Assembly: GCF_001975985.1 (NCBI RefSeq)
Contig: NZ_MTQF01000010.1
Location: 1-64,000 of the forward strand
Length of the DNA: 64,000 bases
Direction: 5' to 3'
Origin: [Flexibacter] sp. ATCC 35103
Lineage (GTDB): Bacteria > Bacteroidota > Bacteroidia > Flavobacteriales > Flavobacteriaceae
This document shows, piece by piece, positions 9,123 to 43,267 of this stretch; the first letter of the stretch is position 1; the number at the start of each line of letters is the position of its first letter. A program made the translations under genes and the position numbers. The notes beneath the pieces are model-generated. The model saw only the letters and a list, made by a program, of their open reading frames with translations. It made no database searches and was not told the DNA's origin.

Positions 9123-9123
9123 A

Positions 9124-9546: not shown

Positions 9547-9570
9547 GATTAATATCTTTAAATTATATAA

Positions 9571-9600: not shown

Positions 9601-9670
9601 TGTTTCATTTTAAAAGCGACTTTAAGACCTGTTTATCTGACATATTTTTTAGCATTCTCATTCAAAAAGC

Positions 9671-9678
9671 TAAATTTG
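9671..9678 (+). promoter_or_regulatory. Putative -7 element for the following membrane gene
   Basis: TAAATTTG matches TAnnTTTG, 42 bases before the start codon. No TTG occurs at the expected distance upstream. Confidence 0.35.
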
Positions 9679-9719
9679 CAAGTAAAAAATAATTGGTTAA
9701 ATTTTAAAGAAATCATTCA

Positions 9720-10412: not shown

Positions 10413-10604
10413 GGATGATTTTTAGTATTTCTAATCTCTTTGCATTTTAAATACTTGTTCAAAAATCTCAAATTTTATCTACGCTTCAATCTTATTTGTA
10501 AAATCGAAAGGGTATAGTTCTGTACTTTCAAAAATTGAAATTATTGATAATTAGTTTATGTTTCAAAAGAAGTAATTTTTTCCATTAAAACTTTGCTATT
10601 AGCT

Positions 10605-10690
10605 TCCCTCGCTCTTTAAAATGTTCTCATAAAAAGCTGCGCAAATGTCCCTCGCTCTCCAAAGAGTTCTTGTAAAAATCTATGCGAATA
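10605..10690. repeat. Two imperfect 43-bp tandem units in a non-coding gap
   Basis: TCCCTCGCTCT occurs at 10605 and again at 10648, followed in both units by a related GTTCT, TAAAAA, CT, GCG-AAT pattern. The rest of the 370-base gap (10413-10782) shows no gene. Confidence 0.5.
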
Positions 10691-10730
10691 TATCATAACT
10701 TCGCAACCGTAAATAATGTTCTAAAACAAA

Positions 10731-10755
10731 AAAAGAGACTTCAAAAGTCTCTTTT
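10731..10755 (-). terminator. Terminator of the XRE regulator gene
   Basis: An 11-bp perfect stem, AAAAGAGACTT with AAGTCTCTTTT, and a 3-base loop, with T-rich sequence on the minus-strand exit. It is about 28 bases after the regulator stop codon. Confidence 0.75.
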
Positions 10756-10782
10756 TAGAATTAATATATCTTCTATGAATAA

Positions 10783-11190
10783 TTATTTATTGATTAACTT
10801 TTCAAGCCTTATAATCATTTCATCTTTCTCTTTCAACATACGCTCGTATAACTCAATTTTTTCATCATATAATTGAACAATTTTGTCAACAGGATTGAAA
10901 GTACAATTGATATGTCCAGAATTGTTTGCAACTGCTCCTTCATGAAAAGTGTTAGCAATAATATTTATCGCCTGTTCTTCATTAAAGTTCTGAAAAGCTT
11001 CAACTGGAATTTTTAATACTGCTGAAATTTGTTTCAACAGATTATCTTCAATTACATCTTTTTGCTCAAGCATAGAAATTTTCTTCTGATTCCAGTCATT
11101 TCCGAGATCATAAGCCAATGCTTCCTGCTTTATGTTAAGCATTTCTCTGAAACGTTTTACGTTTTTTCCCTGATGTATTTTCTGTTCCAT
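10783..11190 (-). CDS. XRE family helix-turn-helix protein with C-terminal coiled coil
   Basis: A 135-residue protein. A Cro/cI-type helix-turn-helix spans about residues 10-65 (GKNVKRFREMLNIKQEALA, then ALAYDLGNDWNQKKISMLEQ). After a short linker, residues 103-134 form a heptad-like coiled coil (VDKIVQLYDEKIELYERMLK), likely for dimerisation. Similar solitary XRE proteins are common in Bacteroidota. No target can be named; it is followed by its own terminator and is single in its transcription unit. Confidence 0.85.
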   Translation of the reverse strand: MEQKIHQGKNVKRFREMLNIKQEALAYDLGNDWNQKKISMLEQKDVIEDNLLKQISAVLKIPVEAFQNFNEEQAINIIANTFHEGAVANNSGHINCTFNPVDKIVQLYDEKIELYERMLKEKDEMIIRLEKLINK

Positions 11191-11346
11191 AACGAATATC
11201 GATTTTCTAAAGGCTCAAATATAAAGCCATTTTTTGAATTAAAACTCTGCGTTTCAAAATAAATGTTTTTAGAAAATAAATTTCAAAATTTGTTGAGAAC
11301 AGCAACATAAATTTTATCATTTGAAGTTTTTATCAACGTCATTTCC

Positions 11347-12243
11347 TTAATTCATTATCCTATATTCATTTGGAGTACTGCCAACATGCTGCTTAAAAAA
11401 TCGCGTAAAGTGCTGTGGATATTTAAATCCTAATTCATAAGCCACTTCATTGATTGTCTTTGTAGAATCGAATATTTTGTCTTTCGCAGTTTCAATAATT
11501 TTATTCTGAATGTATTCCTGAGCCGATTTTCCTGTTTCTTTTTTAATAAGATCGCCAAAGTAATTAGGAGATAAATTAAGTTCGGCGGCATAGTAAGCAA
11601 CAGAAGGTAATCCTATAATATTAGGTTTATCAGAAGAAAAATAGTTGTTTAACAGTTCTTCAAATTTTTCAACAATTCCTTTATTGGTGGTATCTCTGGT
11701 AATAAATTGCCTGTCGTAAAATCTTTCGCAATAATTCAAAAATAACTCAATATTTGATGCAATAAGCTTTTTACTGTGTTTGTCAATAGATTGTTTTAAT
11801 TCCACTTCAATTTTAGCAAAGCAGTCAAAGACAAGCTGTTTTTCTTTTTCAGATAAATGAAGCGCTTCGCTAGTATTATAGCTAAAGAAATTATACTCAT
11901 GGATACTTTTTCCAAGTGAAGTACCACGAATAAGATCAGGATGAAAAACTAGTCCATGGCCAACAGGTTGATAATAGTCTACTTTGTTTTCTACATCAAC
12001 GACTTGACCAGGCGAAACAAAAACCAATGTCCCTTCCTGATAATCGTAATAATTACGACCGTACTTCAAATCTCCGCAGTTTACTTCTTTTAAAAATACG
12101 CAGTAAAGCTCAAAGTTCATTTTAGAGCCTGTTCTTTCCTTTGCTTTTGAAAAATCAATTATACTAACTAAAGGATGTAATGTTTCATGATTATTAAAAT
12201 CATTATATTCATTAATTGTCTCGAAGTTATATACTTGTCCCAT
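11347..12243 (-). CDS. AraC family transcriptional regulator
   Basis: About 298 residues from the ATG at 12243; the frame is open up to a GTG at 12264, but the ATG fits better. The N-terminal part is a cupin-like sensor domain (LVFVSPGQVVDVENK), and the last 100 residues carry the two AraC helix-turn-helix units (LPSVAYYAAELNLSPNYFGD and TINEVAYELGFKYPQHFTRF). It is divergent from two aldo/keto reductase genes, which it probably activates. Confidence 0.9.
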   Translation of the reverse strand: MGQVYNFETINEYNDFNNHETLHPLVSIIDFSKAKERTGSKMNFELYCVFLKEVNCGDLKYGRNYYDYQEGTLVFVSPGQVVDVENKVDYYQPVGHGLVFHPDLIRGTSLGKSIHEYNFFSYNTSEALHLSEKEKQLVFDCFAKIEVELKQSIDKHSKKLIASNIELFLNYCERFYDRQFITRDTTNKGIVEKFEELLNNYFSSDKPNIIGLPSVAYYAAELNLSPNYFGDLIKKETGKSAQEYIQNKIIETAKDKIFDSTKTINEVAYELGFKYPQHFTRFFKQHVGSTPNEYRIMN

Positions 12244-12302
12244 GTCTTTTATTATTGATTGCACAAATTTAACTATTTAAGTATAGCTTAAACAGCAGTT
12301 AG

Positions 12303-13256
<954 letters not shown>

Positions 13257-13277
13257 CAAATATCAAAGAACATTTAG

Positions 13278-14420
<1,143 letters not shown>

Positions 14421-14452
14421 TTAAAAATATACTAATTAAAATTAACAGCATT

Positions 14453-14896
14453 ATGAAAAAATCACTTTTTGGATTACTTATAATTATTCTAATTGCAAAC
14501 AAGTCTTTCGCACAAAATACTATCGCCGAAAAGGAAGTAATTCAACTTTCGCAGCAAAAATGGCAATGGATGGCAGATAAGAATGTCGATAAACTTACAC
14601 CATTGTTTGATGATAAATCTGTTTTTGTTCATATGGGAGGAAGTTGGGGCAAAGTTCAGGAAATCAATGTGATTAAAAGTGGAGGAATTCATTACAAGAA
14701 AGCAGACGTTCACGATGTTTCAGTAAATATTATTGGCAGTACGGCGATACTTTTGAGTAAAATTACACTATTAGCAGTAGTGGGAGGAAATGAAGTTACC
14801 AATCCATTTATTGTGACAGAGGTTTATATTAAAGACAATAATGGCTGGAAATTAGGTTCATTGTCGTTTACCAAATTAATGACACCTGGTCAATAA
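14453..14896 (+). CDS. Secreted NTF2-like (SnoaL/DUF4440) protein
   Basis: A 147-residue protein with a signal peptide (about 1-20, ending SFAQ) and one cone-shaped NTF2-like domain (KWQWMADKNVDKLTPLFDDK, FVHMGGSWG, TEVYIKDNNGWKL). Members of this fold act as small enzymes or binding proteins. It ends the AraC-controlled set, 33 bases after the exported reductase. Function not deducible. Confidence 0.8.
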   Translation: MKKSLFGLLIIILIANKSFAQNTIAEKEVIQLSQQKWQWMADKNVDKLTPLFDDKSVFVHMGGSWGKVQEINVIKSGGIHYKKADVHDVSVNIIGSTAILLSKITLLAVVGGNEVTNPFIVTEVYIKDNNGWKLGSLSFTKLMTPGQ

Positions 14897-15007
14897 TTTT
14901 TCTCAGGTTGCAATAACAGGAAGAGAAAAAAGGAAAATAATTTGAATGGATCTACTTATTGAAAACGAGTATAATAAATGAAAAAATTAAAAGGTATAGT
15001 TATATAA

Positions 15008-15763
15008 ATGGAAAACTCATTAAAAGAACTTGTTTATGAATTTTCCAGAACAGCTTGGAATGAATATTTACCGCATTTATCAATTGACTGTGTTGTATTT
15101 GGTTACAATGTTGCAAATATGAAAATATTACTAGTGCAGCTTAAAGATCAGGAAAATTGGTCTTTACCTGGAGGATATATTCGGAAAGAGGAAGATATAA
15201 ATCAAGCTGCAAAAAGAATACTTACAGACAGAACAGGTGCTCACGATATTTATCTTCAGCAATTTAGCGTTTTTGCAAATGCAAATAGGAGTCAGGATTT
15301 CTTTGAAGAATATGAAGATGGACTGTGGAACAAACAGCGTTTTATTTCTTTAGGATTTTACGCTTTGGCTGATTATGAAAAAGTAAATCCTGTTGTAGAT
15401 ATTTTCTCAAGTAATTGTGATTGGATTGATATTAATGAATTGCCCAATATGATGATGGATCATAAATTGATTTTTGATCAGGCATTATTAAACCTTCGTA
15501 GGGAACTTAATTATAAGCCCATCGGCTATAACCTTCTTCCTGAAGAATTTACAATGCCGGAATTACAGAGACTCTACGAAATTATCCTTGGTAAAAAACT
15601 AAATAGGGGAAATTTTTACAGAAAGATGATAGGTTATGATATTTTAGATAAAATGGATGAACCAAGAATGGAAGGCAAAGCACATAAAGCACCAAACCTT
15701 TACAGATTTAATATTCAAAAATATAATATTGCGCTTCAGGACGGACTAAAAGAAGGATGGTAG
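15008..15763 (+). CDS. NrtR-like Nudix-domain transcriptional regulator with degenerate Nudix box
   Basis: A 251-residue protein with a Nudix domain (about 20-150) joined to a winged helix (about 165-245: YNLLPEEFTMPELQRLYEII and NRGNFYRKMIGYDIL). The Nudix box reads G-x5-E-x7-R but the following REUxEE positions are I, L, T, D, R, so the metal-binding glutamates are missing and hydrolysis is unlikely. In Bacteroidota such proteins act as repressors that sense ADP-ribose or sugars. No sugar operon adjoins it, so the effector is unknown. Confidence 0.82.
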   Translation: MENSLKELVYEFSRTAWNEYLPHLSIDCVVFGYNVANMKILLVQLKDQENWSLPGGYIRKEEDINQAAKRILTDRTGAHDIYLQQFSVFANANRSQDFFEEYEDGLWNKQRFISLGFYALADYEKVNPVVDIFSSNCDWIDINELPNMMMDHKLIFDQALLNLRRELNYKPIGYNLLPEEFTMPELQRLYEIILGKKLNRGNFYRKMIGYDILDKMDEPRMEGKAHKAPNLYRFNIQKYNIALQDGLKEGW

Positions 15764-31945: not shown

Positions 31946-32458
31946 ATGCAGTTAGAAAATTATATACGTGATATTCAGGGTTTTCCAAAAGAAGGAATTT
32001 TGTTTAAAGATATAACTCCGCTACTAAATGACCCAATTGCGACAAAAGAATGCCTTAATATTCTAATCGAATCTCTTGACGGACAAAAAATAGACAAGGT
32101 AGTAGGAGCAGAAAGTCGTGGTTTTTTCTTCGGGATATTATTAGCGCAGGAATTAAATGCAGGTTTTGTTCCGGTTAGAAAACCAAAAAAGCTTCCTTAC
32201 GAAATCATTTCAGCTTCATATGATTTAGAATACGGCACAGACAGCTTAGAAATGCATACAGATGCAATAAAAAAAGGAGACAGGGTTTTGATCCACGACG
32301 ACGTTTTGGCAACAGGAGGAACCGCTAAAGCAGTTTGTGAATTAGTAGAGAAATTAGGTGGCGAAATTGTACAATGCAACTTTCTAATGGAACTAACTTT
32401 CCTGAACGGAAGGCAAAAGATTAAAGAGCATCCAATTTTTGCAGCTTTAACATACTAA
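31946..32458 (+). CDS. apt: Adenine phosphoribosyltransferase
   Basis: A 170-residue enzyme that joins adenine to PRPP to give AMP in purine salvage. The PRPP-binding motif is VLIHDDVLATGGTAKAV (about 112-128); VGAESRGFFFG and FVPVRKPKKLPYE are the adenine-site segments of the family. Length is typical. Cytoplasmic and presumably constitutive. Confidence 0.97.
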   Translation: MQLENYIRDIQGFPKEGILFKDITPLLNDPIATKECLNILIESLDGQKIDKVVGAESRGFFFGILLAQELNAGFVPVRKPKKLPYEIISASYDLEYGTDSLEMHTDAIKKGDRVLIHDDVLATGGTAKAVCELVEKLGGEIVQCNFLMELTFLNGRQKIKEHPIFAALTY

Positions 32459-32490: not shown

Positions 32491-32526
32491 AAAATTGTTC
32501 TGGTAAATTTATACCAGGACAATTTT
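32491..32526. terminator. Bidirectional terminator between apt and the response regulator
   Basis: AAAATTGTTCTGGTA and TACCAGGACAATTTT form a 15-bp stem with one U-G pair; it overlaps the last codons of the minus-strand response regulator and is T-rich beyond. Confidence 0.75.
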
Positions 32527-33153
32527 ATTTTTAATAGCATATAAAACTAAGCCTATTCTGGTTTTAATTTCAAGTTTGTCGAATAAACATTCCCTGTAAC
32601 CGTCAATTGTTTTGGGACTCAGACACATTTCTGAAGCGATTTCCTTGTATGTTTTTTCAGTACAGGCGTGTTTTATAAAAATGATTTCTTTGTCTTTTAG
32701 GTTTATTTTTGCGGTGTCATTGTTGGCTTTTTTCACTAACATGCCAGACACTAATTCAGTAAAATAAAACCCTTTTTCGATCACAGATATAATGCAGTCC
32801 TTAAATATTTCCGGCGATGTATCTTTAAGCAAATAGCCTTTGGCACCATTGGTGAGCATTTTTATAATAATTTCTTCATCATCGTTTACAGATAACGCAA
32901 TAACTTTAAGTTCAGGTCTGTTTTCCTTAATCCATTTCATGGTACTAACGCCATCGAGAACCGGCATATTTACATCTAGTAAAATTAAATCAACATCTGA
33001 GTTGGTGTTTTCCTGTAAATACGAAATAAATACTTTCCCGTTTTCAAAGCGGTTGATGACTTCAAAATCTTTAAAACTATTGATCAAAAGCTCCAGTGAT
33101 TGCGAAAAAAGCAAATGATCGTCTACAATAATAATTTTGTTTTTAGGTTTCAT
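32509..33153 (-). CDS. LuxR/NarL-type response regulator
   Basis: A 214-residue two-domain regulator. The receiver (1-120) has the phosphate-accepting Asp in LILLDVNMPVLDG (about 59), with KIIIVDDH at the start and Lys in GAKGYLLKD. The C-terminal LuxR helix-turn-helix is at about 145-205 (TYKEIASEMCLSPKTIDGYR). It overlaps the kinase gene by 11 bases. Last gene of a four-gene minus-strand operon facing the six-gene cluster, which is its likely target. Confidence 0.93.
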   Translation of the reverse strand: MKPKNKIIIVDDHLLFSQSLELLINSFKDFEVINRFENGKVFISYLQENTNSDVDLILLDVNMPVLDGVSTMKWIKENRPELKVIALSVNDDEEIIIKMLTNGAKGYLLKDTSPEIFKDCIISVIEKGFYFTELVSGMLVKKANNDTAKINLKDKEIIFIKHACTEKTYKEIASEMCLSPKTIDGYRECLFDKLEIKTRIGLVLYAIKNKIVLV

Positions 33154-33928
33154 TGGGTTTCGTTAAGGGATATTCTAAAGTTACAGTTGTTCCTGATGCG
33201 TCTGATTTCATGATTAATAGTGCGCCAATTAATTTGGCTCTTAACTTCATGTTGGTTAATCCTAATCCGGGATTTATCCTGAGCGGATCATATCCAATCC
33301 CGAAATCTTTCATTTCCAGATAAAAAACATCCTTTGTTGTGTTAATATTTACTTCAAATAAATCACTGTGAGAATGTTTTAGGCTATTGTGCATTGCTTC
33401 TTGAAAAATGCGGTAAATAAACAAATCATGCTCTTCGTTTATATTGGGTACACCGCCTGTAAAGTTATAATTATATGGAATATTTTTCAACTTTTTTATG
33501 CGCTCCAAATCTTGTTTTATTGCTTCTATAAAATTGGTTTGCAATAAGTTGTCTTTGTTTATTATTCTGGATAAAATCCGTATTTCGTCCAGGGATTTGG
33601 CAAGGACTGCCTTAAGGTCAGACAGTTCAGGACCATAAACAGGTTTACCGCTATCGATATACATATTGAGCTGCAAAATGCCAACAGATACAATTTGACC
33701 AATATTATCATGAAGTTCTTTACTGATTTCGCTTAAAGTCTGATCCTTAATTTCGATTCTAGTTTTTATTAATTCCGATTGAAAATACAATTCCGATTCC
33801 ATTTTTTCGACCAGATACGTATTCTTTTTCTTTAAGAAATAAAAGAATATGACAAGCAGAATCACCAGTAAAGTAAAAAAAACGATACCTAACGAAATTA
33901 CTAGTAATTGTATTTCTTTTCGCTCCAT
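33143..33928 (-). CDS. HisKA_3-type sensor histidine kinase
   Basis: A 261-residue kinase from ATG at 33928 (frame open to a TTG at 33949). One N-terminal membrane helix, then a coiled stretch, the HisKA_3 phosphoacceptor in EISKELHDNIGQI (His about 73) and a HATPase domain with GLGLTNMKLRAKLIGA. It has no periplasmic sensor of its own; the 7TM-like protein encoded directly upstream probably supplies the signal. Start overlaps that gene by 28 bases, which suggests coupled translation. Confidence 0.9.
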   Translation of the reverse strand: MERKEIQLLVISLGIVFFTLLVILLVIFFYFLKKKNTYLVEKMESELYFQSELIKTRIEIKDQTLSEISKELHDNIGQIVSVGILQLNMYIDSGKPVYGPELSDLKAVLAKSLDEIRILSRIINKDNLLQTNFIEAIKQDLERIKKLKNIPYNYNFTGGVPNINEEHDLFIYRIFQEAMHNSLKHSHSDLFEVNINTTKDVFYLEMKDFGIGYDPLRINPGLGLTNMKLRAKLIGALLIMKSDASGTTVTLEYPLTKPNET

Positions 33929-34548
33929 AAAAATCCAATAATAAAACAACCGTGCATTAGAAAATTTAATATAAATAACACTAAACTAAACACTGATTCA
34001 TCTTGTTTGATCAAAAACCATTTTATAGCCAGCATAAACGGCAGAACTGGCACATGAAAGACCAGAATGCCTAATATGTACCAAAAAAATACAGATTTTT
34101 TAAAATTTAAAATTTTATCAGAATTAAAAATTTCTATCAAATATAAACAAGATAATATCATAACTATCAGAACACCAATAGCAAAACTGTAAATAAAGGA
34201 ATGGTTTATATCTTCTTTACAGTATAAAATATTGAGAAGAAATGAAAATACAAACAAAACCAAACATAAAGCCGCCGTTCCTTTATAATTAATTTTTATT
34301 AATAAACTCCTGAGAAGCAGAATATAAGAACAAAAAGTAACGAACATGTAAATGTTGAAAACATAATAATTTAATACTCCTGTCCATTCTGTAAAATGGT
34401 AGCCAACTATTTCGGTCAGAGCTGAAAACCAAATTAAAACTACTAAAAATTTAGCCCTTTTGCCCGGGAGCTTATGCAGCGATATCAGTCCGGTAATACC
34501 CGATAATAAAGCGAGATAAACAATATAAAATCTTAAAATTTCAAACAT
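33901..34548 (-). CDS. 7TM-like membrane protein of a sensory operon
   Basis: A 215-residue protein with about seven membrane helices and short loops. No enzyme motif is visible. In Bacteroidota proteins of this shape often precede a small HisKA_3 kinase and a LuxR-type regulator, as here, and may be the sensing subunit. It overlaps the kinase gene and is 6 bases from the gene before it. Confidence 0.75.
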   Translation of the reverse strand: MFEILRFYIVYLALLSGITGLISLHKLPGKRAKFLVVLIWFSALTEIVGYHFTEWTGVLNYYVFNIYMFVTFCSYILLLRSLLIKINYKGTAALCLVLFVFSFLLNILYCKEDINHSFIYSFAIGVLIVMILSCLYLIEIFNSDKILNFKKSVFFWYILGILVFHVPVLPFMLAIKWFLIKQDESVFSLVLFILNFLMHGCFIIGFLWSEKKYNY

Positions 34549-34554
34549 AGTTTT

Positions 34555-34995
34555 TTAATATAATAAAGCTGGTGGTCTTCCAATACTGCCATAATTCATA
34601 GGTTCTATAGTCGATATGTCTGCATTCTCCTCTTCACGAACCAATGCAAAAGTTTGTACATCATTAGAACTTATAGTATTGATTCTGATCTTTTTGCCTG
34701 TTGCTGTCAAAAATAACGTCATCAAACCAGCTTTTTCAGCATATTTTTTTTCTTCAGGATACACTCCAAAATAAAAACGGATTCCGTTTACATTATAACC
34801 GGTTTTTTCGCCCTGAGTTTTGATATAATGTATGTAGTTTTCGAGCTCTTCTAATGAAAACCAAATGGCATTTGCATCTTCTTTCTTGATGTATTTCGCA
34901 ATAATACTGGCTCTGTACTTCATAAAATTTAAGTGTAATTCTTTACCAAATTTTTTAGTAATTAATTGAGTCGGTCTTCCTGGTTCTTTTTTCAT
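34555..34995 (-). CDS. Unknown 146-residue protein, first gene of the sensory operon
   Basis: Start placed at ATG 34995 (MKKEPGRPTQLITKKFGKEL); the frame is open 8 codons further upstream. Mixed alpha/beta composition, no signal peptide or membrane helix, a central SLEELENYIHYIKTQGEKTG helix and KIRINTIS strand. I do not recognise the family. It faces the six-gene plus-strand cluster across a 285-base intergenic region. Confidence 0.65.
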   Translation of the reverse strand: MKKEPGRPTQLITKKFGKELHLNFMKYRASIIAKYIKKEDANAIWFSLEELENYIHYIKTQGEKTGYNVNGIRFYFGVYPEEKKYAEKAGLMTLFLTATGKKIRINTISSNDVQTFALVREEENADISTIEPMNYGSIGRPPALLY

Positions 34996-35100
34996 AATCT
35001 TAAAAATTAAATCATTCAATGGTTAATTGGTTAATTTGTTGTTTTATAGTGTTTTAAATAAAACTTACATGCAAAATTATTTTAAACTTATAAAGTTTGC

Positions 35101-35155
35101 AAGGGGAAATATACCCTTTTTTTATAGGGTTAATTTATTTAAAAAATAGGGTTAA
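35101..35155. promoter_or_regulatory. Repeated AGGGTTAA/ACCCT sites between the sensory operon and the six-gene cluster
   Basis: ATAGGGTTAA occurs at 35124-35133 and again at 35146-35155, start to start 22 bases, or about two helical turns. An inverted half, ACCCT, is at 35113-35117. This looks like a multi-site operator, most simply for the neighbouring response regulator. A TTTTG is present at about 35161, but no exact TAnnTTTG follows. Confidence 0.5.
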
Positions 35156-35279
35156 AGTGCTGTTTTGTAGTAATTTATAAAAAATCAACTTTACATCGTT
35201 CATTTTCGTGCACAAAATGGACAGGCGAAATCTGAAAAGCCTGTTAAAAGAGTAAGAGCTAATTGTAATACTAAAAATT

Positions 35280-36131
35280 ATGAGTTTATATCATGAAGTT
35301 TTTCAAGGAGAATCATTCAGCGAAGACAATTATTTTGAAGCTGTACGATATGTTTTAGGTCCTGAATATTCAAATCTAAATGAAAACGAATTAGAGGATG
35401 TGTTGTTGTCAAGAGTAGATCAAATGTCTGAAAGTGAAGCCGAAGGATTCTGGTCCAGTTTAGGAAATGTTGCCAGCAGTATTGGTTCCGGAGTTTTGCG
35501 AGGAGTTTCGGCAGTTGCTCCTATAGCAGGAACAGCGATTGGTACTTATTTTGGAGCTCCGCAAATTGGCGGTGCCGTGGGAGGATTAGTGAGCAATCTG
35601 GCCGGATCTGCCAGTACGGCATTAGATAATAATCGCCAGCAGCAAAGACCTGTACAGCCACAACGCAGACCTGCTTATAATAACAGACCGCGACAAAATC
35701 CGTCGCCAATTGGGCAGGCATGGAACAATACAACCAGATATCTGGCAGATGCCGGCAGAGCTGCTATTCCGGCTATTCAGCAATATGTACAAAACAATCC
35801 CGTACAATTGCGTCCGCAGGCAGCCCAGGATATTGGCAGGGTTCAGGGACTTTATAACCAGCTTGGAGGTGTAATCAACAATCCGCAATTTCAAGCCGGA
35901 CAAGCACAGCAAAGTTTAGGAACCGCAAGTCCAAATGCACCTATCGAAAGCCATTCATTTGCAGAATTAATCGAAAATGTAAATTACCTCACAGAAAATA
36001 TTCTATATGAATATTATAACGGAGGATTAATTCCTGCCGAAGATTACTACATCGATCAATACGGTCAGTTTGTGGGCACAAATACCCCAAACCGTATCAA
36101 CCGACTTGAAAATTCTATTGCCAGTTTATAA
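35280..36131 (+). CDS. Cluster gene 1: Gly/Ala-rich hydrophobic protein of unknown function
   Basis: A 283-residue protein I do not recognise. Residues 1-57 are acidic (ESFSEDNYFEAV, NLNENELEDVL, SESEAEG). Residues 62-115 are rich in Gly, Ala and Ser and hydrophobic (SAVAPIAGTAIGTYFGAPQI), with the feel of a membrane-active or self-assembling segment. Residues 118-160 are Gln/Arg/Pro/Asn-rich, and the C-terminus is helical and acidic. There is no signal peptide. First gene of the cluster, 20 bases before gene 2. Confidence 0.7.
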   Translation: MSLYHEVFQGESFSEDNYFEAVRYVLGPEYSNLNENELEDVLLSRVDQMSESEAEGFWSSLGNVASSIGSGVLRGVSAVAPIAGTAIGTYFGAPQIGGAVGGLVSNLAGSASTALDNNRQQQRPVQPQRRPAYNNRPRQNPSPIGQAWNNTTRYLADAGRAAIPAIQQYVQNNPVQLRPQAAQDIGRVQGLYNQLGGVINNPQFQAGQAQQSLGTASPNAPIESHSFAELIENVNYLTENILYEYYNGGLIPAEDYYIDQYGQFVGTNTPNRINRLENSIASL

Positions 36132-36151
36132 AACACTTAAAAGTTATACCA

Positions 36152-36556
36152 ATGGATGCTTATATAGAATATTTGAAAGAACATAATCCTGAAATGGCTA
36201 AATATTTTGAATTGATGCAGCCTATGATGGAGAAAAAAGAACCGGAAGAGGAAAAAGAAACTCCTAAAATTGATTTGGAACTCGAAGAAAGAGTCAGAAA
36301 ACTAAAGAAAATCAATCAGAAACTTTTTACCATTATCGAAGGATTAAAATTTCAATTAGAATTTGAATTGAATCAAAATGATGACTTAGCAAAAGCTATT
36401 GGCGCTTGTACAGAATGTTTTGGCGAAAATATAGATTGCCCGGAATGTTTTGGAACAGGAAAACCAGGCAATAGTATTCCGGATTTTATTCTTTTTAATA
36501 AATATATCCAACCTGCAATCCAGAAATATAACAAACATTATTTCAATAAAAATTAA
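36152..36556 (+). CDS. Cluster gene 2: small zinc-ribbon, coiled-coil protein
   Basis: A 134-residue protein. Residues 25-75 form a charged helix, probably a coiled coil (LELEERVRKLKKINQKL). Then CTEC (86-89) and CPEC (96-99), each followed by FG, make a CxxC-x6-CxxC zinc ribbon like one half of the DnaJ zinc finger. The last 30 residues are hydrophobic and basic. No signal peptide. Unknown function; probably an adaptor or assembly factor for its neighbours. Confidence 0.7.
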   Translation: MDAYIEYLKEHNPEMAKYFELMQPMMEKKEPEEEKETPKIDLELEERVRKLKKINQKLFTIIEGLKFQLEFELNQNDDLAKAIGACTECFGENIDCPECFGTGKPGNSIPDFILFNKYIQPAIQKYNKHYFNKN

Positions 36557-36574
36557 CCTTTAAAATTTAAAATT

Positions 36575-37297
36575 ATGAGTTATTTCGAAAGTTATTTAGA
36601 TGAAGATTTATTAAATGAAGACTATTATAATGAAGATTTGCTAAGCGAAGATTTATTAGAAAGCTACGATGAAAGTTATGATGAAGCTGCAAAACGCAGA
36701 AGACCTTCAGCAAGAACGATCAGGCCAAATGTAAGTTCTGCAGTCAAGCAAAGATCAAACTTTGGTAAAGCCCTGAGCGGTAGAGCGAATGATTATGCCA
36801 CTAAAAGTGAGTTGAAAAAATCTTTGGATTCAATTTCAAATCAGGTTAATGAACTTAAAAAGACCTCACTTGCTACCAATAAAGCCTTGGTTTCATTAGA
36901 TCAAAAACATACAGAGTTTGCAAAAATCGATGCCAGAAAAGGCGAAAACCAAACCAAGGTTTTAAAAAATATGCAAATGATGAGCATGATGGGATCACTT
37001 TTGAATCAGCCAAAATTAAAACCTGAAAACCTCGAGATTGTGGCTGATACAAAAGATAAAGACGGGAATGTATTAACTACAAAAATCGTCGAAAAAACAA
37101 ACACAAGTGCTATTTATGTAGATCAAACCCTGTCGCTATTGTTGCCTATGATGACCACAATGGGAGATTCAGGTTCCGGAAAATCAGATAATAATATGAT
37201 GTTGCCATTAGTCTTAATTATGTCTCAACAAAATAAAGACACTACAAACAATAACAGCATGTTACCGCTTGCAATGGTCATGATGATGAACAAGTAA
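36575..37297 (+). CDS. Cluster gene 3: acidic-repeat, Met-rich protein
   Basis: A 240-residue protein with unusual layout. Residues 9-28 are four pentapeptide repeats of the form (D/N/S)-E-D-(L/Y)-(L/Y), followed by ESYDESYDEA and then a basic stretch (KRRRPSART). Residues 75-130 are likely coiled coil. From about 137 the protein is Met- and Leu-rich, with three related hydrophobic units LLPMMTTM, MLPLVLIM and MLPLAMVM separated by Asn/Ser/Lys spacers, ending in MMMNK. No signal peptide. Not recognised. A terminator hairpin follows. Confidence 0.7.
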   Translation: MSYFESYLDEDLLNEDYYNEDLLSEDLLESYDESYDEAAKRRRPSARTIRPNVSSAVKQRSNFGKALSGRANDYATKSELKKSLDSISNQVNELKKTSLATNKALVSLDQKHTEFAKIDARKGENQTKVLKNMQMMSMMGSLLNQPKLKPENLEIVADTKDKDGNVLTTKIVEKTNTSAIYVDQTLSLLLPMMTTMGDSGSGKSDNNMMLPLVLIMSQQNKDTTNNNSMLPLAMVMMMNK

Positions 37298-37303
37298 TAT
37301 TAA

Positions 37304-37334
37304 AAAAGGGCAGTTAATACCCAATTGCCCTTTT
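37304..37334 (+). terminator. Hairpin inside the six-gene cluster, after gene 3
   Basis: AAAAGGGCAGTT and AATTGCCCTTTT form a 12-bp stem with one G-U pair and an AATACCC loop, then a T-rich tail. It could reduce transcription of genes 4-6 relative to genes 1-3, or end a first transcript. Confidence 0.7.
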
Positions 37335-37362
37335 ATTTCTATGAACCTTAAAATATGAAAAG

Positions 37363-37887
37363 ATGAATCCATTTAATTTATTAATCAATTATGTAATAGC
37401 AAACAGCAGGGCGAGTTATTATAATGTACCGGGCAATCAGGAAGTCACAAATATGGCGCTTTTGACAGGTATGATTTCAGAAAATCCTTTACTGAGTTAT
37501 TTAATTATTGATAACAAAGCAAAATCAGAAGGGGAGAATGTCAGCAGTTCATTAACGGTAGTAACTCCTCCTGTAACTCACAGTATACCTGAATTACCAG
37601 CGTCAACATCAGGTACTTCGCAAACTACGCCTAAAGATCCTGAAAAAGAAACTACTGTGCCCGGAGAAGAAGCTGTTACTGTAAAAACGCTGGAGACTTT
37701 TAAAGATGAAATAACAACCAGTAATAAAGAATTAAAAAATAAAATACTAGAAGAACTGTCAGGTCTAAAGGAAAAACTGGAATCTTTTGATAAAGAAAAA
37801 GTTGCAATAAGTGACTCTATTGCAACAATCGAAAAAAGACTGGATGAAATCGTAAAAGCCACACCAAATCATGGATCCCAGGCTTAA
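37363..37887 (+). CDS. Cluster gene 4: Pro/Thr linker and coiled-coil protein
   Basis: A 174-residue protein. The first 55 residues are mildly hydrophobic (NPFNLLINYVIANSRASYY), residues 60-100 are a Pro/Ser/Thr-rich linker and residues 105-168 are a long helix with coiled-coil heptads (EITTSNKELKNKILEELSGL). It overlaps the subtilase gene by 17 bases, which indicates coupled translation and perhaps a physical partner. Family unknown. Confidence 0.65.
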   Translation: MNPFNLLINYVIANSRASYYNVPGNQEVTNMALLTGMISENPLLSYLIIDNKAKSEGENVSSSLTVVTPPVTHSIPELPASTSGTSQTTPKDPEKETTVPGEEAVTVKTLETFKDEITTSNKELKNKILEELSGLKEKLESFDKEKVAISDSIATIEKRLDEIVKATPNHGSQA

Positions 37888-39541
37888 AATTATCTTATAT
37901 GGTAATCCGGACGAGGAGTTGTCGTTGCTTATGCGTTTAGAGAAAGAAAAAGATTATCCTGAAAATTGCAAGATCATTACCGAATTCGGAAAAATTGTAA
38001 GCATCACTACAAAGCGGCGTTATTTGCTCTCGATTTACAACAGCAAAAAAGTAAAAAGCCTAAAAGCTCCCACTGTTGTTCCTGCCAATGAAATTATAGA
38101 AGAATTTCCTGAAAATCAGATTCTCGATAAAAATAATGTTTCCGGCGATCCTGTTTCGAATGTTATGTTTGGAATTATTGATTTTGGTTTCGATTTTACA
38201 CATCCTGATTTTATTGTGAACGGTAAAACCCGTTTCGAAAAAATCTGGGTACAATCAGATCGATATGATGGCAATGCATACGGCTACGGAAGAATTATTA
38301 CCAAAGAGCAGATTAATGACGCTTTGCAAGATGAATTTCCGTTTAAAAAACTGGGTTATCATCCCGGTAAAACAGATTTATTTGGTAACGGAACACATGG
38401 TACACACGTACTTGGTATTGCCTGTGGTAACGGCGCCGTTGCAACAAAAAGTTTTGCACCAAACGTTCCTATTACCGCAGTAGACCTGGGATTAAACAAT
38501 ATCAACGGATCTAATTTATCCTTGGGCGATTCTGTAAAAACATCTCACGGATTGCATTTTTGTACCGTTACGGCAAATAAAATGCCGCTTGTAATTAATA
38601 TGAGTTTAGGAGGTCATGGCGATGCACATACCGGAGAAACTTTGCTGGAGCAAATCATAGATTATATTTTGACCACCAGAAAAGGAACAGCGATTGTTCA
38701 GAGTACAGGAAATTATCATCAGGCAAATGTGCATACTTACAGCGATATAAAAGCAAACCAGAAAGTGAAAATCCCGTGGATGTTTAAGAAAAATGACCGT
38801 ACGCCAAACGAAATGGAAATTTGGTATCACGGCGACGATATATTAAGTGTCAATATTTATGATGATAATCAGAATTTACTGCTTTCTTCGACGCCTTTTA
38901 AAGATGAATTAATCATAAAAGATGATGACGAAGTGGGAATTTGCCTTCACAGATGCAACGAGCCAAATACCAATAAAAATCAAATTAATATTCTGATTAA
39001 TGGTAAATTAAATTCAAAATTCTGGACGATAGAACTGGTTGGCAGAACAGTAAAAAACGGACGATATCATTGCTATATTGAGCGTGACGATGGCGGACAA
39101 TCTATTTTTTTGCCTGCAATTGCCAACAAAACGCACACAACCAATTCTATTTGTAATTCGAAATACAGTATCGTTGTAGGCGCATACAATCAGACCGATG
39201 AGACAAAACCTATTTTGTCTTTTAGCAGTTCCGGACCTACGGCTGACGGAAGGATGAAACCGGAACTTGTTGCGCCTGGTTTTAAGATAAAATCATCGTG
39301 TTCGTCTTCAAGTCGCGAAAACAGGGCGTCAAATAAACTTACTTCTAAAAGTGGGAGCAGTATGGCAGCGCCTTATGTTGCTTCTCTGGTAATGAAAATT
39401 CTCGAAAAAGAACCTGAACTGGATATTATTGCCATCAGAAAAAAGCTTTTTGCGGCCTGTGATACTGCTTTTTTCAAAGAAAATAATTTCGAAGTTTTCA
39501 GATCCGGACACGGTTATATCAATCCTAATAAAATAATATAA
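37871..39541 (+). CDS. Cluster gene 5: S8 family (subtilisin-like) peptidase without signal peptide
   Basis: A 556-residue subtilase. The triad is intact: Asp104 in GIIDFGFDFTHPDF, His176 in GNGTHGTHVLG and Ser497 in SGSSMAAPYVASL. Residues 1-90 precede the catalytic domain and could be a short regulatory or pro-region; a roughly 150-residue beta-rich insert lies between His and Ser (IPWMFKKNDRTPNEMEIWYH). No signal peptide or membrane anchor, so it is either cytoplasmic or exported by an unusual route. It overlaps gene 4 and precedes the SGNH protein by 12 bases. Substrate unknown; cluster proteins are candidates. Confidence 0.92.
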   Translation: MDPRLKIILYGNPDEELSLLMRLEKEKDYPENCKIITEFGKIVSITTKRRYLLSIYNSKKVKSLKAPTVVPANEIIEEFPENQILDKNNVSGDPVSNVMFGIIDFGFDFTHPDFIVNGKTRFEKIWVQSDRYDGNAYGYGRIITKEQINDALQDEFPFKKLGYHPGKTDLFGNGTHGTHVLGIACGNGAVATKSFAPNVPITAVDLGLNNINGSNLSLGDSVKTSHGLHFCTVTANKMPLVINMSLGGHGDAHTGETLLEQIIDYILTTRKGTAIVQSTGNYHQANVHTYSDIKANQKVKIPWMFKKNDRTPNEMEIWYHGDDILSVNIYDDNQNLLLSSTPFKDELIIKDDDEVGICLHRCNEPNTNKNQINILINGKLNSKFWTIELVGRTVKNGRYHCYIERDDGGQSIFLPAIANKTHTTNSICNSKYSIVVGAYNQTDETKPILSFSSSGPTADGRMKPELVAPGFKIKSSCSSSSRENRASNKLTSKSGSSMAAPYVASLVMKILEKEPELDIIAIRKKLFAACDTAFFKENNFEVFRSGHGYINPNKII

Positions 39542-39553
39542 ATCAGGAATAAA

Positions 39554-40792
39554 ATGGAAAATTTAGTTTCGAATATCCCAGTTATACAAAATAGAAATCC
39601 TGTAAACCCACGCAGGATATTAAATAATAGTGTTGGGTTAAATGCTGTTAATAATCCTGCAGATGTTTTGCAAATTCAAAATTATCTCAACGCATTAGGA
39701 TATCCTGTTCAGACAAATGGCAGTATTGCAAACAGCCAAACGGATAATACGATTATTTCTATCTTAAATTTTCAGGCAAATAACGGAGTTCAGGTTACTG
39801 GAATTATTAATCCAAATGACCAAACCTATAATACGTTGAAACAATTAAACGGTGCTAGTGTTTCCTTGTCAGAAGAATTTGATGAATCCCTGCATCAGCC
39901 TTTTATTACCAATTCGTTTATTTTTAGGCGAAATGCCGGAAATGCCAATACACTCAATGTTATTTTCGAAGGTGATTCGTGGCTGGATTATCCCGTGCCC
40001 AGAATTTTAGATTTGTATGATACGATTACAGATCACAATCAAAGGCTTAACCTGAATTGTCTGCACTTGGCCAAATTTGGAGAAACAACTTCACAGATGT
40101 ATGCTGATAAAGCAAATTTTGTACAATATATAAGTGGTTATCGTATTGATAGAATTTATTTTAGCGGAGGCGGAAATGATGTTTTTCCTCAACTGGGCAG
40201 AATATTAAATCCAGGAGTTACTTTATTTGATGCTTCTTTTTTTACGGATGCAGCAAAACTGAATGAATTAAAAAGCATGTCTTCCGGCGATTCCTTATAT
40301 CAAAAATGCATTCAGTATAAAAGGTATTTAAATACAACGGCGTTTGATGCAGCTCTTTTTAATACCGTTAATCTCAACGGGATTTTTACTGTTATAATGC
40401 GAAATTATCTGGGTTTTGGCAGTATAATAAATGCTCATTCAACACCTAATACGATATTTTACATGCATACTTATGATTATCCGTTGTTTAAACTGGGAGT
40501 CAGACCGTCGATTGTAGGTGTAGATTTGCCTTTAGGGCCGTGGATAAAACCTGTTCTTGACCGATTGGGAATTACAGATGAGATTTTGAAAGCCTATATC
40601 ATTATACGTTTGCTGGACAAGTTTTATGCGCTTTTATTGCAAATTAAAAATCATTTTAATTATTATGGATATCGCTTTCAAAGCAGAATAATTGATTACC
40701 GCGGGCTTTTAAATTCTTCTGAATACTGGAGAGATGAGATTCATCCTAATTCTGGCGGAGCGCGAAGATTGTCGACGCGAGTTAATTTTTAA
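39554..40792 (+). CDS. Cluster gene 6: peptidoglycan-binding-like domain fused to SGNH hydrolase
   Basis: A 412-residue protein. Residues 25-100 have the repeat of a PG_binding_1-like domain (NNPADVLQIQNYLNALGYPV, NTIISILNFQANNGVQVTGI). An acidic LSEEFDESL linker follows. From about 132 an SGNH hydrolase has block I EGDSW (Ser142), block II Gly176, block III GGGND (Asn208) and block V DEIH (Asp394, His397). The enzyme is probably an esterase or deacetylase acting on a polymer. As with its neighbours, there is no signal peptide. A strong terminator follows. Confidence 0.8.
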   Translation: MENLVSNIPVIQNRNPVNPRRILNNSVGLNAVNNPADVLQIQNYLNALGYPVQTNGSIANSQTDNTIISILNFQANNGVQVTGIINPNDQTYNTLKQLNGASVSLSEEFDESLHQPFITNSFIFRRNAGNANTLNVIFEGDSWLDYPVPRILDLYDTITDHNQRLNLNCLHLAKFGETTSQMYADKANFVQYISGYRIDRIYFSGGGNDVFPQLGRILNPGVTLFDASFFTDAAKLNELKSMSSGDSLYQKCIQYKRYLNTTAFDAALFNTVNLNGIFTVIMRNYLGFGSIINAHSTPNTIFYMHTYDYPLFKLGVRPSIVGVDLPLGPWIKPVLDRLGITDEILKAYIIIRLLDKFYALLLQIKNHFNYYGYRFQSRIIDYRGLLNSSEYWRDEIHPNSGGARRLSTRVNF

Positions 40793-40846: not shown

Positions 40847-43267
40847 TTATCTTAAACTTGCTCCAAGCTCCGTCTCAAATGTTTGTTGCAATTTAGACAT
40901 GATTTTATCGATTTGAGCATCTGTAAGTGTTTTTGTATTGTCCTGAATCGTGAAACTCAACGCATAAGACTTTTTACCTTCCGGAAGTTTTTCGCCTTCA
41001 TAAACATCAAATAAATTAACGTCTTTTAAAAGCGCTTTTTCAGATTGTTTTGCCAGGTTATAAATACTCTCATAAGTGGTGTTCTTATCGATCAATAACG
41101 CTAAATCCCTGCGAACTTCCGGATATTTAGGAATTTCAGAATATTTAATTTTTCCGGTAATGATTTTTAAAATCAAATCCCAGTTAAAATCAGCGAAATA
41201 AACATCTTGTTTAATTCCAAAATGTTTTAGTATTGGTTTTTTAATCACACCCATTTCTACCAATGTATCATTGTTGTAGCAAATAGCCGTTCCTTCAGAG
41301 AAAATATCCGTCTGAACCGGCGCATTCGAAATTTTTTCAATTCCTAAACGGGCTAAAATTCCTTTTACATATCCTTTAAGTAAAAAGAAATCAGTAGTTT
41401 TTTGAGGGTTTGTCCAGCTTTCCTTATTTCTGTTTCCAGAAATCAATAAAGTAAGATGTTTGTGTTCCTCATAACCGTTCAGGTATTTATGGTACGATTT
41501 TCCGAATTCGAATAATTTTAAATCAGCATTTTTTCTGTTAATATTATAAGAGATCGCCTCTAAACCTGAAAACAATAACGATTGACGCATCGTAGATAAA
41601 TCACTACTAAGCGGATTCAGCATTGTAACATTGTGTTCTTCTTTTAAAACGCTCGATAACTTAGCATAAGAAGCCGTTGTTAAAGAGTTTGCCATCATTT
41701 CATGAAATCCCTGAGAATTTAATTGAGACGCAATAACGTTTTGTACTTTATAATCTTCTGTTCTTGGCGAATTAGAAACAGTTGCATTGAATTTTTTAGA
41801 GAAATTAATGTTGTTATAACCGTAAACTCTCAAAATCTCTTCGATTACATCAATTTCACGCTGCACATCTACGCGATACGCCGGAATTGTTAATCCTAAA
41901 CCAGAATCAGAAACACTGTTTACTTTAATATCTAAAGAAACAAGGATTTTTTTGATGGTATCTTTTGGAATTTCCTGTCCGATGATTTTCGATACATGGC
42001 TGAAATTCAACAAAACCGAAAAATCTTCTACTTTTTTAGGATATACTTCCACAACATCAGAAGTTATTTTTCCGCCTGCAACTTCCTGAATTAAAAGTGC
42101 CGCACGTTTCAATGCATATTCTGTAATAGTTGGATCAATACCTCTTTCAAATCTAAAAGAAGCATCTGTATTTAATTGGTGTCTTTTAGCTGTTTTACGA
42201 ATACTAACAGCATCAAAATAAGCACTTTCTAAGAATATAGTAGTGGTACCATCTGATACGCCTGATTTTTTTCCTCCAAAAACACCTGCAATACAAAGCG
42301 GGCCTTTTTCGTCGCAAATCATTAAATCTTCTTTATGTAATGTTCTTTCAACATCATCTAAAGTCACAAATTTTGTACCTTCAGGAAGTGTTTTTACGAT
42401 TACTTTTCCGTTAATTTTTGCAGCATCAAATGCGTGAAGCGGCTGTCCTAATTCATGCAAAACATAATTAGTAACATCGACAATATTATTTTTTGGAGTT
42501 AATCCAATAGCTTTTAAACGATCTTGTAACCATGCAGGAGATTCCTGAACCGAAATTCCTGAAATTGTTACACCACAATATCTTGGAGCTAAAAGAGGTT
42601 CCTCGACATTTACATCAATTTTCAAAGTACGCATGTCAACTCTAAAGTTACTCACAGATGGCGTAATTAATTCTACGTTTACACCGCGTTGCAGCATTCC
42701 GGCTCTCAAATCACGCGCTGTTCCGTAATGGCTCATGGCATCAGCACGATTTGGCGTTAATCCAATTTCGAAAACTTCGTCATTAGCAATCTGAAAAACT
42801 TCTGCAGCCGGTGTTCCCGGAATTAGCGCTTCATCCAGAATCATGATTCCGTCATGTCCTGTACCCAAACCTAATTCATCTTCGGCACAAATCATTCCGT
42901 GGCTTTCCTGTCCGCGTATTTTTCCTTTTTTAATGGTAAATTCACCACCATCTTTATCATATAAAATAGTTCCTATAGTAGCTACAGGTACTTTTTGTCC
43001 TGCGGCAACATTAGCGGCGCCACAAACAATTTGTATAGGAGCTTCTAAACCAATATTTACCGTTGTAATGTTTAATCTGTCAGCATCAGGGTGCTTTTCG
43101 CAAGTAAGTACGTGTCCTACAACAACTCCTTCTAAACCGCCTTTAACTGATTGGTATTTTTCGACAACTTCAACTTCCAGACCCAGATCTGTTAGTAATT
43201 CTGAAGTTTGTTCAGATGTCCAGTCTGTTTTAATGAATTGTTTTAACCAGTTGTAAGATATTTTCAT
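40847..43267 (-). CDS. pheT: Phenylalanine--tRNA ligase beta subunit
   Basis: An 806-residue protein of normal length. Domain order: N-terminal B1 with ISYNWLKQFIKTDWT, a tRNA-binding OB-fold (about 40-150: LTCEKHPDADRLNITTVNIG), B3/B4 core, B5 domain, the catalytic-like core, and a C-terminal anticodon-binding ferredoxin fold (SEIPKYPEVRRDLALLID). It works with PheS, which is not in this window. Single gene with terminator. Confidence 0.97.
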   Translation of the reverse strand: MKISYNWLKQFIKTDWTSEQTSELLTDLGLEVEVVEKYQSVKGGLEGVVVGHVLTCEKHPDADRLNITTVNIGLEAPIQIVCGAANVAAGQKVPVATIGTILYDKDGGEFTIKKGKIRGQESHGMICAEDELGLGTGHDGIMILDEALIPGTPAAEVFQIANDEVFEIGLTPNRADAMSHYGTARDLRAGMLQRGVNVELITPSVSNFRVDMRTLKIDVNVEEPLLAPRYCGVTISGISVQESPAWLQDRLKAIGLTPKNNIVDVTNYVLHELGQPLHAFDAAKINGKVIVKTLPEGTKFVTLDDVERTLHKEDLMICDEKGPLCIAGVFGGKKSGVSDGTTTIFLESAYFDAVSIRKTAKRHQLNTDASFRFERGIDPTITEYALKRAALLIQEVAGGKITSDVVEVYPKKVEDFSVLLNFSHVSKIIGQEIPKDTIKKILVSLDIKVNSVSDSGLGLTIPAYRVDVQREIDVIEEILRVYGYNNINFSKKFNATVSNSPRTEDYKVQNVIASQLNSQGFHEMMANSLTTASYAKLSSVLKEEHNVTMLNPLSSDLSTMRQSLLFSGLEAISYNINRKNADLKLFEFGKSYHKYLNGYEEHKHLTLLISGNRNKESWTNPQKTTDFFLLKGYVKGILARLGIEKISNAPVQTDIFSEGTAICYNNDTLVEMGVIKKPILKHFGIKQDVYFADFNWDLILKIITGKIKYSEIPKYPEVRRDLALLIDKNTTYESIYNLAKQSEKALLKDVNLFDVYEGEKLPEGKKSYALSFTIQDNTKTLTDAQIDKIMSKLQQTFETELGASLR

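Follow-up and report, generated by a model that had tools for sequence, protein, structure and literature searches.

A subtilase-containing five-gene kernel shared across phyla, and the sensor operon that faces it in Flavobacterium

The gene cluster described here lies in [Flexibacter] sp. ATCC 35103 (Flavobacteriaceae), on contig NZ_MTQF01000010.1 of assembly GCF_001975985.1; the window denotes the whole stretch analyzed, i.e. the first 64,000 nucleotides of that contig. Two facing operons with ten genes (32509-40792) sit between apt and pheT: a minus-strand sensor operon in the order Unk154-TM7-HK-RR and a plus-strand operon in the order g1-g2-g3-g4-S8-SGNH. The first five genes of the plus-strand operon (the kernel) recur in the same order in other phyla, and in other species the sensor operon is accompanied by different sets of genes (payloads). 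The features of the locus are:

31946-32458: apt, flank of the ten-gene locus (named by reading of its translation)
32509-33153, minus strand: RR, NarL/LuxR-type response regulator (Response_reg 4.2e-23, GerE 2.2e-6)
33143-33949, minus strand: HK, sensor histidine kinase (HATPase_c 1e-7; one N-terminal hydrophobic segment, hydropathy peak 3.23)
33901-34548, minus strand: TM7, membrane protein with seven hydrophobic segments (hydropathy peaks)
34555-35019, minus strand: Unk154, 154 aa, at the head of the sensor operon (unmatched in Pfam and NCBIfam)
35101-35118, no strand: operator-like inverted repeat AAGGGG-N6-(A/C)CCCTT (pattern search)
35222-35258, plus strand: DUF805b cis-regulatory RNA (RF02914), leader of g1 (39.1 bits, gathering score 35.6; E = 6.6e-10)
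35280-36131, plus strand: g1, 283 aa, first kernel gene (acidic N-terminus, Gly/Ala-rich centre, Arg/Pro/Gln linker)
36152-36556, plus strand: g2, 134 aa (charged, probably helical part and a cysteine knuckle)
36575-37297, plus strand: g3, 240 aa (acidic N-terminus, middle that reads as coiled-coil-like, short Met/Leu-rich C-terminal blocks)
37363-37887, plus strand: g4, 174 aa, fast evolving (short hydrophobic N-terminus, tail that reads as coiled-coil-like)
37871-39541, plus strand: S8 subtilase (PF00082 Peptidase_S8, 6.7e-34; N-terminal prodomain-like region)
39554-40792, plus strand: SGNH, variable last gene, 412 aa (PF01471 PG_binding_1, 3.4e-7, and SGNH blocks)
40847-43267: pheT, flank of the ten-gene locus (named by reading of its translation)

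An earlier note on this DNA, made from the sequence alone, had described the six plus-strand genes as closely spaced or overlapping, and its coordinates were all correct (gaps of 20, 18, 65, -17, and 12 bases between the open reading frames). The four genes that it could assign to no family, g1-g4, indeed gave nothing over the Pfam or NCBIfam cut-offs, and weak matches only to PHROG and PADLOC (best: g4 to PbeC, 4.1e-4). Its intact S8 peptidase carries the triad motifs GIIDFGFD at residue 101, GTHGTHV at 174, and GSSMAAP at 495, and its SGNH hydrolase with a peptidoglycan-binding-like domain is likewise borne out. Signal peptides, which the note had reported as missing, were not seen by hydropathy (without a dedicated predictor): all six proteins lack a hydrophobic N-terminus, and no 19-residue window in them averages a hydropathy of 1.6 or more. 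The facing operon of an unknown protein, a 7TM protein, a kinase, and a LuxR regulator is also as described; the HisKA_3 match of the kinase, at 22.4 bits, stays under its cut-off of 24, and TM7 and Unk154 belong to no Pfam or NCBIfam family, with no more than weak PHROG or PADLOC matches for Unk154. The observation is thus confirmed. The interpretation attached to it, a regulated multi-protein system that might be an assembled particle or a protease-processed effector released by lysis or an unusual export route, is partly supported.

Judged by its relatives, the genome that holds the window is Flavobacterium-like, and within Flavobacterium the locus is strongly conserved. A protein search with SGNH selected 14 contig loci, all from this genus, and all ten genes were present in the same order in each of them (14/14). 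A search with g1 matched 7 of 150 genomes of the genus, own genome included, and the seven corresponding short loci each also contained Unk154, TM7, HK, g2, g3, and g4; apart from the own genome, the six g1-positive genomes are not independent of six of the contig loci. The flanking genes apt and pheT were each present in 12 of the 14 loci, with extra DNA ahead of pheT in three (L013, L016, and L018). Median ratios of nonsynonymous to synonymous substitutions (dN/dS; window versus relatives) were 0.046 for g1, 0.032 for g2, 0.061 for g3, 0.062 for S8, and 0.074 for SGNH, compared with 0.058 for apt and 0.033 for pheT; these ratios are rough, with dS at about 0.9 or more. Hence g1, g2, g3, S8, and SGNH are under purifying selection like the flanking genes, and g4 is so least (0.298, the highest of the set). 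Because all ten genes are kept in 14/14 relatives and the median dN/dS is low, the locus is not a chance assembly. An extra gene of approximately 150 aa lies between g4 and S8 in 11 of the 14 relatives, without a Pfam match in the two examples scanned; it seems dispensable, since the window, L010, L012, and L017 do without it.

Beyond the genus, the kernel is rare in the Bacteroidota samples. Among 395 genomes of the phylum, the g1 profile matched the own genome and one Gly-rich relative (2/395, E<=0.01), and both SGNH (E<=1e-5) and S8 (E<=1e-40) matched the own genome only. A cross-phylum g2 profile, run on 385 Bacteroidota genomes, returned the own genome and two matches which were dropped as false, their frames being presumably tryptophan synthase alpha.

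The kernel was found on plasmids of three other phyla. S8 relatives occurred on 25 of 72,556 plasmids (E<=1e-8), and 10 neighbourhoods were opened. Three of these, from Cupriavidus oxalaticus (L033), Gemmatirosa kalamazoonensis (L034), and Streptomyces canus (L036), carry g1-g2-g3-g4-S8 in the same order and on the same strand. No kernel was seen in the other seven, two of which were read in part (L044, whose upstream side is cut by the record end, and L040, of which the plus strand alone was read). The S8 proteins are 36% (Cupriavidus), 33% (Gemmatirosa), and 29% (Streptomyces) identical to that of the window. In profile comparisons g2 reached 97.8% (E = 7.8e-13), g3 96.7% (E = 4.6e-10), and g1 94.0% (E = 1.4e-7, over 47 N-terminal positions). 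An alignment of six g2 sequences contains the invariant knuckle GAC-x2-C-x-G-x4-C-x2-C-x-G-x-G, which probably binds a metal, and g3 has hydrophobic 9-mers and an acidic N-terminus in all four organisms compared. A clearly acidic N-terminus is not seen in g1 of Gemmatirosa and Streptomyces. For g4, identity outside Flavobacterium is 14-17%; its position and weak similarity suggest homology, and g4 as a proven homologue outside the genus was set aside.

When Cupriavidus g2 was searched against all 72,556 plasmids (E up to 1), it matched three records, exactly the three with the kernel (the Streptomyces record at 2e-2 only). Homologues of genes 1-4 scattered without the peptidase would have spoken against the view of the earlier note; where this was tested, plasmid g2 stood beside the peptidase in 3/3 records. 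The corresponding search with Streptomyces g1 (E<=1e-3) found itself alone and is uninformative, because g1 is too divergent. A multi-protein system that includes the peptidase, as the note had proposed, therefore stands: kernel order is kept across phyla, and regulator genes are near in all four cases. On the plasmids these lie at most about 2 kb upstream of the kernel and encode a NarL-type response regulator (Gemmatirosa), an AraC protein with a sub-threshold receiver domain (Cupriavidus), and a BTAD protein (Streptomyces). The hydrolase, by contrast, is not a fixed part, as different modules take its place in the three other phyla. In Cupriavidus, S8 forms a fusion protein with PG_binding_1 (two stretches) and PG_binding_3, the Streptomyces kernel is followed by an M4 peptidase gene, and Gemmatirosa S8 shows a weak beta-lactamase-fold match. 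The partner that follows S8 or is fused to it thus varies, and the last hydrolase is an exchangeable part.

No description of the kernel gene order was found in the literature searched, a weak negative given that most subscription papers and all preprints lay outside the coverage; a known annotated system of the same order, which would have counted against the earlier note, did not turn up there either. Among viral contigs, alignments of SGNH, S8, and g2 yielded no kernel, and phage records gave no SGNH match; relatives of Cupriavidus S8 were present in five unannotated phage records. The sole S8 match among the viral contigs (L046) has, by reading, phage-like neighbours and a PG_binding-like hydrolase. 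On two Rhizobiales plasmids (L035 and L041), an S8 gene (approximately 700 aa) is adjoined by a phospholipase D-like gene and by genes of the caspase or CHAT type, with no kernel seen.

The two enzymes encoded in the window retain their catalytic residues. In S8, the Asp-His-Ser triad (D104, H176, and S497) does not vary among 15 Flavobacterium sequences or within the cross-phylum alignment. With the cross-phylum profile, the nearest solved relatives are the Csp germination proteases (9sj6, E = 9.5e-49; CspB 4i0w, 8.5e-39), and several Csp chains align over positions of about 105-575, the span in which the jellyroll insertion of Csp-type subtilases between His and Ser would lie; the score against NCBIfam CspBA was 82 bits, below the cut-off of 1250. 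SGNH contains the blocks GDSW140, GGGND205, and DEIHPN394, and its GDS142, N208, D394, and H397 are invariant in 15 sequences, so that the GDS, GxND, and DxxH signatures are all present. It is 25-27% identical to proteins of six plasmids, including two R. phaseoli records annotated as SGNH/GDSL; the GDSL match stayed below the cut-off in the three plasmid relatives scanned. No match was found among PDB sequences (E<=0.1), and PHROG endolysin matches were weak (best 7.1e-4).

The sensor operon is more widespread than the payload it faces in the window. Homologues of Unk154 were detected in 28 of 121 Flavobacterium genomes and in 77 of the 149 Flavobacteriaceae genomes sampled. Seven of the 28 are type A, i.e. 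sensor loci that carry the g1 payload as in the window; 16 others were opened, and five were left out (G006, G040, G048, G057, and G079; two of them with weak matches). The order Unk154-TM7-HK-RR was kept in all 16 opened loci, 10 of which lie between apt and pheT like the window. Over 16-kb stretches, none of the 16 contained a match to g1-g4, S8, or SGNH at E<=1e-4. The full four-gene order was also found in 8 of 12 loci opened from other genera (L098-L100, L102-L104, L106, and L107).

What accompanies the sensor was assigned by reading of open reading frames and by tblastn, with representatives checked against Pfam. Five loci (L070, L075, L077, L078, and L083) encode two unknown proteins of 669-671 aa and 715-718 aa together with a PG_binding-muramidase, and five (L072, L073, L074, L076, and L079) a muramidase alone or with one small gene. 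In L073, a 43-residue remnant of the 717-aa payload gene (8212-8340) precedes the lone muramidase, which suggests that the short payload was derived by deletion from the longer form. L082 has one row of genes opposite the sensor (8717-15190) for a caspase, a trypsin-like protease, proteins of 515 aa and 582 aa, and a PG-binding muramidase, plus a small gene; the L084 payload consists of proteins of 150, 515, 589, and 197 aa and an amidase-SH3 protein, and that of L080 of DUF2589 and two more genes. Overall, a wall hydrolase was present in 12 of the 16 loci (11 PG_binding-muramidases and one amidase). The L075 muramidase matches the endolysin family phrog_1224 over its length (7.9e-83) and also PF11860. 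The payload is thus exchanged between species behind a constant sensor.

The caspase set of L082, together with the matches of S8 to PADLOC subtilase models (PDLC03014, 1.3e-23; IetS, 2.6e-5), brings to mind anti-phage suicide, in which infection would activate S8 and the resulting cleavage of g1 or g3 would make them lethal to the infected cell. The low-complexity partners of the protease and the lack of visible export signals would fit such a role, as would the plasmid location of the kernel and a partial PD-T4-6 match of Cupriavidus g4 (5.9e-8). We nevertheless consider this explanation unlikely. An envelope two-component sensor suits an outside cue better, wall hydrolases are frequent among the sister payloads, and Cupriavidus g1-g3 have no PADLOC match; moreover, in 12 of 14 relatives the locus is flanked by apt and pheT and not by defence genes, though such genes were not searched for there.

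The region between the two operons contains an inverted repeat, AAGGGG-N6-(A/C)CCCTT, whose single exact match in the 5.68-Mb genome is the site at 35101-35118. This uniqueness alone proves nothing, because a reversed control pattern likewise has one match in the genome. With one mismatch allowed, the 64 kb of the window contained the same site on both strands, where 0.32 would be expected; 7 of 100 shuffles gave a count as high. A slightly wider form of the repeat, however, occurs once in every one of the 16 opened loci that lack the g1 payload, and in 13 of the 14 type-A loci. In addition, the intergenic DNA of 15 of the 16 loci aligns to that of the window better than all 200 shuffles, which preserve dinucleotides only roughly; L081, L084, and L085 beat the shuffles narrowly. 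Three loci with other payloads (L070, L080, and L083) keep this similarity to within 2-17 nt of the g1 start of the window; in the rest of the loci it stops at least 31 nt before it.

Two interpretations of this conservation have to be weighed. The repeat may only autoregulate the sensor, since it also stands before the sensors of L071, L081, and L085. Sensor and payload could also be mere neighbours at an insertion hotspot, with no mutual regulation: the payloads differ completely, L071 and L081 have none that is evident, and even L071 retains the repeat and a large share of the intergenic similarity. The similarity that approaches the g1 start in L070, L080, and L083, beyond the promoter side of the sensor, argues otherwise, and we regard the hotspot explanation as very improbable. 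From the same similarity we infer that the repeat probably also serves the payload; as a putative operator, it would be bound by the response regulator and would control the opposite genes.

Downstream of the repeat, the leader of g1 reaches the gathering score of the DUF805b RNA family, and the match ends 21 nt ahead of the g1 start codon. The gathering score was also exceeded in six of seven further type-A loci scanned (L021 being the exception). DUF805b precedes the 515-aa genes of L084 (52.8 bits) and L082 (35.8 bits, barely over), and L080 and L083 contain the short core pattern only. Fourteen matches were listed for the own genome, four over the cut-off and three more at 26-33 bits; the seven below 19 bits were dropped. 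The seven best matches all lie 18-23 nt before start codons, namely those of g1, of two small peptides with Gly-Gly leaders, and of proteins of 173, 410, 137, and 236 aa. All 14 control genomes had DUF805b matches at E<=1, none of them over the cut-off. A literature search on DUF805 returned nothing on the RNA by title or abstract.

Two of these matches (C29:119436-119468 in L114 and C14:702532-702564 in L117) stand directly before the genes of the 68-aa and 60-aa Gly-Gly-leader peptides. One of the two peptides has a sub-threshold match to class IIc bacteriocins (Bacteriocin_IIc), and both are candidates for secreted peptides under the same leader RNA. A further match of 33 bits precedes the 410-aa gene (L118, C14:309730-312764), which by reading lies directly downstream of another pair of kinase and LuxR-type regulator.

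The recurrence of wall-binding hydrolases among the payloads and the wide distribution of Unk154 could also reflect envelope housekeeping. The sensor would then detect wall stress and induce repair by a muramidase or esterase, with S8 as quality control. We find this improbable: wall-editing enzymes are normally exported by a signal, none of which is visible here, and conflict better accounts for the turnover of payloads and for Gly-Gly-leader peptides that share the leader RNA.

One sensor relative directly adjoins an extracellular contractile injection system (eCIS) locus. Beyond L085, the region L110 (G024:C51) encodes a sheath, two gp19-type tube proteins, CIS_tube, a spike (Phage_base_V), PAAR, and gp25 proteins. 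The eCIS genes and the Unk154-TM7-HK-RR cassette are co-directional, the former running into the latter. Separately, a Gly-rich protein resembling g1 over approximately 110 residues is encoded on a different island (L025, 9186-9989; L032, L037, and L038), which also contains genes for proteins of 440-455 aa (with an HE(V/T)GHQ motif) and 550-720 aa and, by reading, for a sigma-54-type activator; PG_binding proteins that include GIY-YIG or glucosaminidase domains occur in L032 and L037, and an eCIS_core protein in L025. This island was rejected as the same system, as its gene content differs and the shared stretch is short and of low complexity.

These findings bear on the view of the earlier note that g1, g3, and g4 assemble into an extracellular or surface particle which S8 matures and on which the hydrolase is carried out. 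Besides the eCIS neighbour and the g1-like protein of the distant eCIS_core island, the acidic N-terminus and short hydrophobic blocks of g3 in the four organisms would agree with it. On the other hand, Pfam, PHROG, NCBIfam, and PADLOC scans found no particle protein in the cluster, the resemblance to g1 lies in low-complexity residues, and g1 does not share a clearly acidic N-terminus in two of the four organisms. Structure models built from 15 close sequences were too poor for use (mean predicted local distance difference test scores of 49.8 for SGNH and 46.2 for g1) and thus to judge the question. The assembled particle has found no evidence, and we hold it to be rather unlikely.

Our leading explanation, which we put forward tentatively, is a signal-induced effector island with an exchangeable lytic or antagonistic payload behind a constant sensor. 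Signal-induced lysis, or antagonism after lysis, is suggested because a Csp-type protease and a wall-binding hydrolase without export signals face an envelope sensor that elsewhere often accompanies endolysin-like payloads. Most likely, the payload is cytoplasmic, protease-armed, lytic or antagonistic, and released by lysis. The unusual release route of the earlier note agrees with the missing export signals and the endolysin-like sister payloads, its mechanism being conjectural. In the proposed sequence of events, the cassette of Unk154, TM7, HK, and the NarL-type regulator would sense a cue, and the regulator, acting through the repeat at 35101-35118 and the divergent promoter region, would switch on the opposite payload, whose translation the DUF805b leader may tune. 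The proteins g1, g3, and g4 might assemble in the cytoplasm into a soluble complex, for which the knuckle protein g2 would serve as adaptor and which would keep the Csp-like S8 and the wall hydrolase inactive. On a trigger, S8 would cut and thereby free itself and the hydrolase, which could reach the peptidoglycan as the producer lyses or its membrane fails; the target would be either the own wall (programmed lysis) or the wall of neighbours.

Several results weigh against this explanation. The main gap is that hydropathy showed no transmembrane segment in the six proteins and hence no visible holin-like part; g1 as a pore was rejected for this reason. No immunity gene was recognised, either. 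No Pfam GDSL family scored for SGNH (PG_binding_1 alone did), and its target could possibly be a lipid or another ester. Among the 16 opened loci, two (L071 and L081) have no evident payload and L080 has no recognised wall hydrolase. The repeat was present in just 2 of the 12 loci from other genera, and it precedes both payload-less sensors as well as the co-directional L085. Intergenic DNA of the payload-less L071 aligns to that of the window (57 versus a shuffle maximum of 28), and that of L082 does not (20 versus 23). Finally, of the 11 sensor loci without the g1 payload that were scanned for DUF805b, only two have a match over its cut-off.

Since three or four nameless families keep their order with a Csp-like protease, the kernel points to an undescribed conserved machine. 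More speculatively, it is possible that g1-g2-g3-g4-S8 is a cytoplasmic chassis, armed with a protease and horizontally mobile, that occurs in at least four phyla and is loaded with varied wall-binding or hydrolytic modules. In Flavobacterium it would then be one of several interchangeable payloads under a single sensor, which in other loci would serve endolysins, caspase sets, and possibly an eCIS; DUF805b would act as a translational switch for at least some genes of a conflict or lysis regulon. Two things make the locus of wider interest. The nameless families and their protease span Bacteroidota, Pseudomonadota, Gemmatimonadota, and Actinomycetota, and the Flavobacterium loci amount to a natural experiment with one sensor, one recurring repeat, and many payloads. 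The inducing signal, the function of the payload, and the role of DUF805b thereby become testable in an environmental genus.

Compared with known systems, the cluster is neither an eCIS, nor a listed defence system, nor a complete phage lysis cassette. With eCIS it shares the one sensor relative that adjoins such a locus (L085/L110), but sheath, tube, spike, and baseplate genes are missing from the window cluster by Pfam and PHROG, and no eCIS was found in the window. Export by Sec or by the type IX secretion system would call for an N-terminal signal peptide, of which hydropathy gave no sign. Phage-type endolysins (PG_binding with N-acetylmuramidase) are matched by such a gene in 11 of 16 sister payloads, the scanned one matching phrog_1224 and PF11860, whereas the last gene of the window is an SGNH protein with weak endolysin matches; a holin, as in a phage-type lysis cassette, is not apparent in g1-g4, which lack any 19-residue window of at least 1.6. 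IetAS-type subtilases and caspase/trypsin sets resemble S8 and the L082 payload, respectively; in contrast, g1-g3 have no convincing PADLOC match and no AAA gene lies beside S8. No known anti-phage system had its PADLOC model set complete in the cluster, the matches being limited to subtilase-type ones for S8 and partial ones for g4. The leader belongs with the DUF805b RNA (RF02914) by its score, but g1, without a Pfam match, is not the kind of gene implied by the family name as we take it. In the Csp-SleC pathway of Clostridium, cleavage of SleC, the cortex hydrolase, requires Csp proteases (PMC3567191). Unlike that pathway, the present system has no spores, includes the unknown partners g1-g4, has PG_binding with SGNH instead of SleC, and scores far under the CspBA cut-off; it resembles it in pairing a subtilase that has a prodomain, with Csp proteases as its nearest solved relatives, with a peptidoglycan hydrolase partner.

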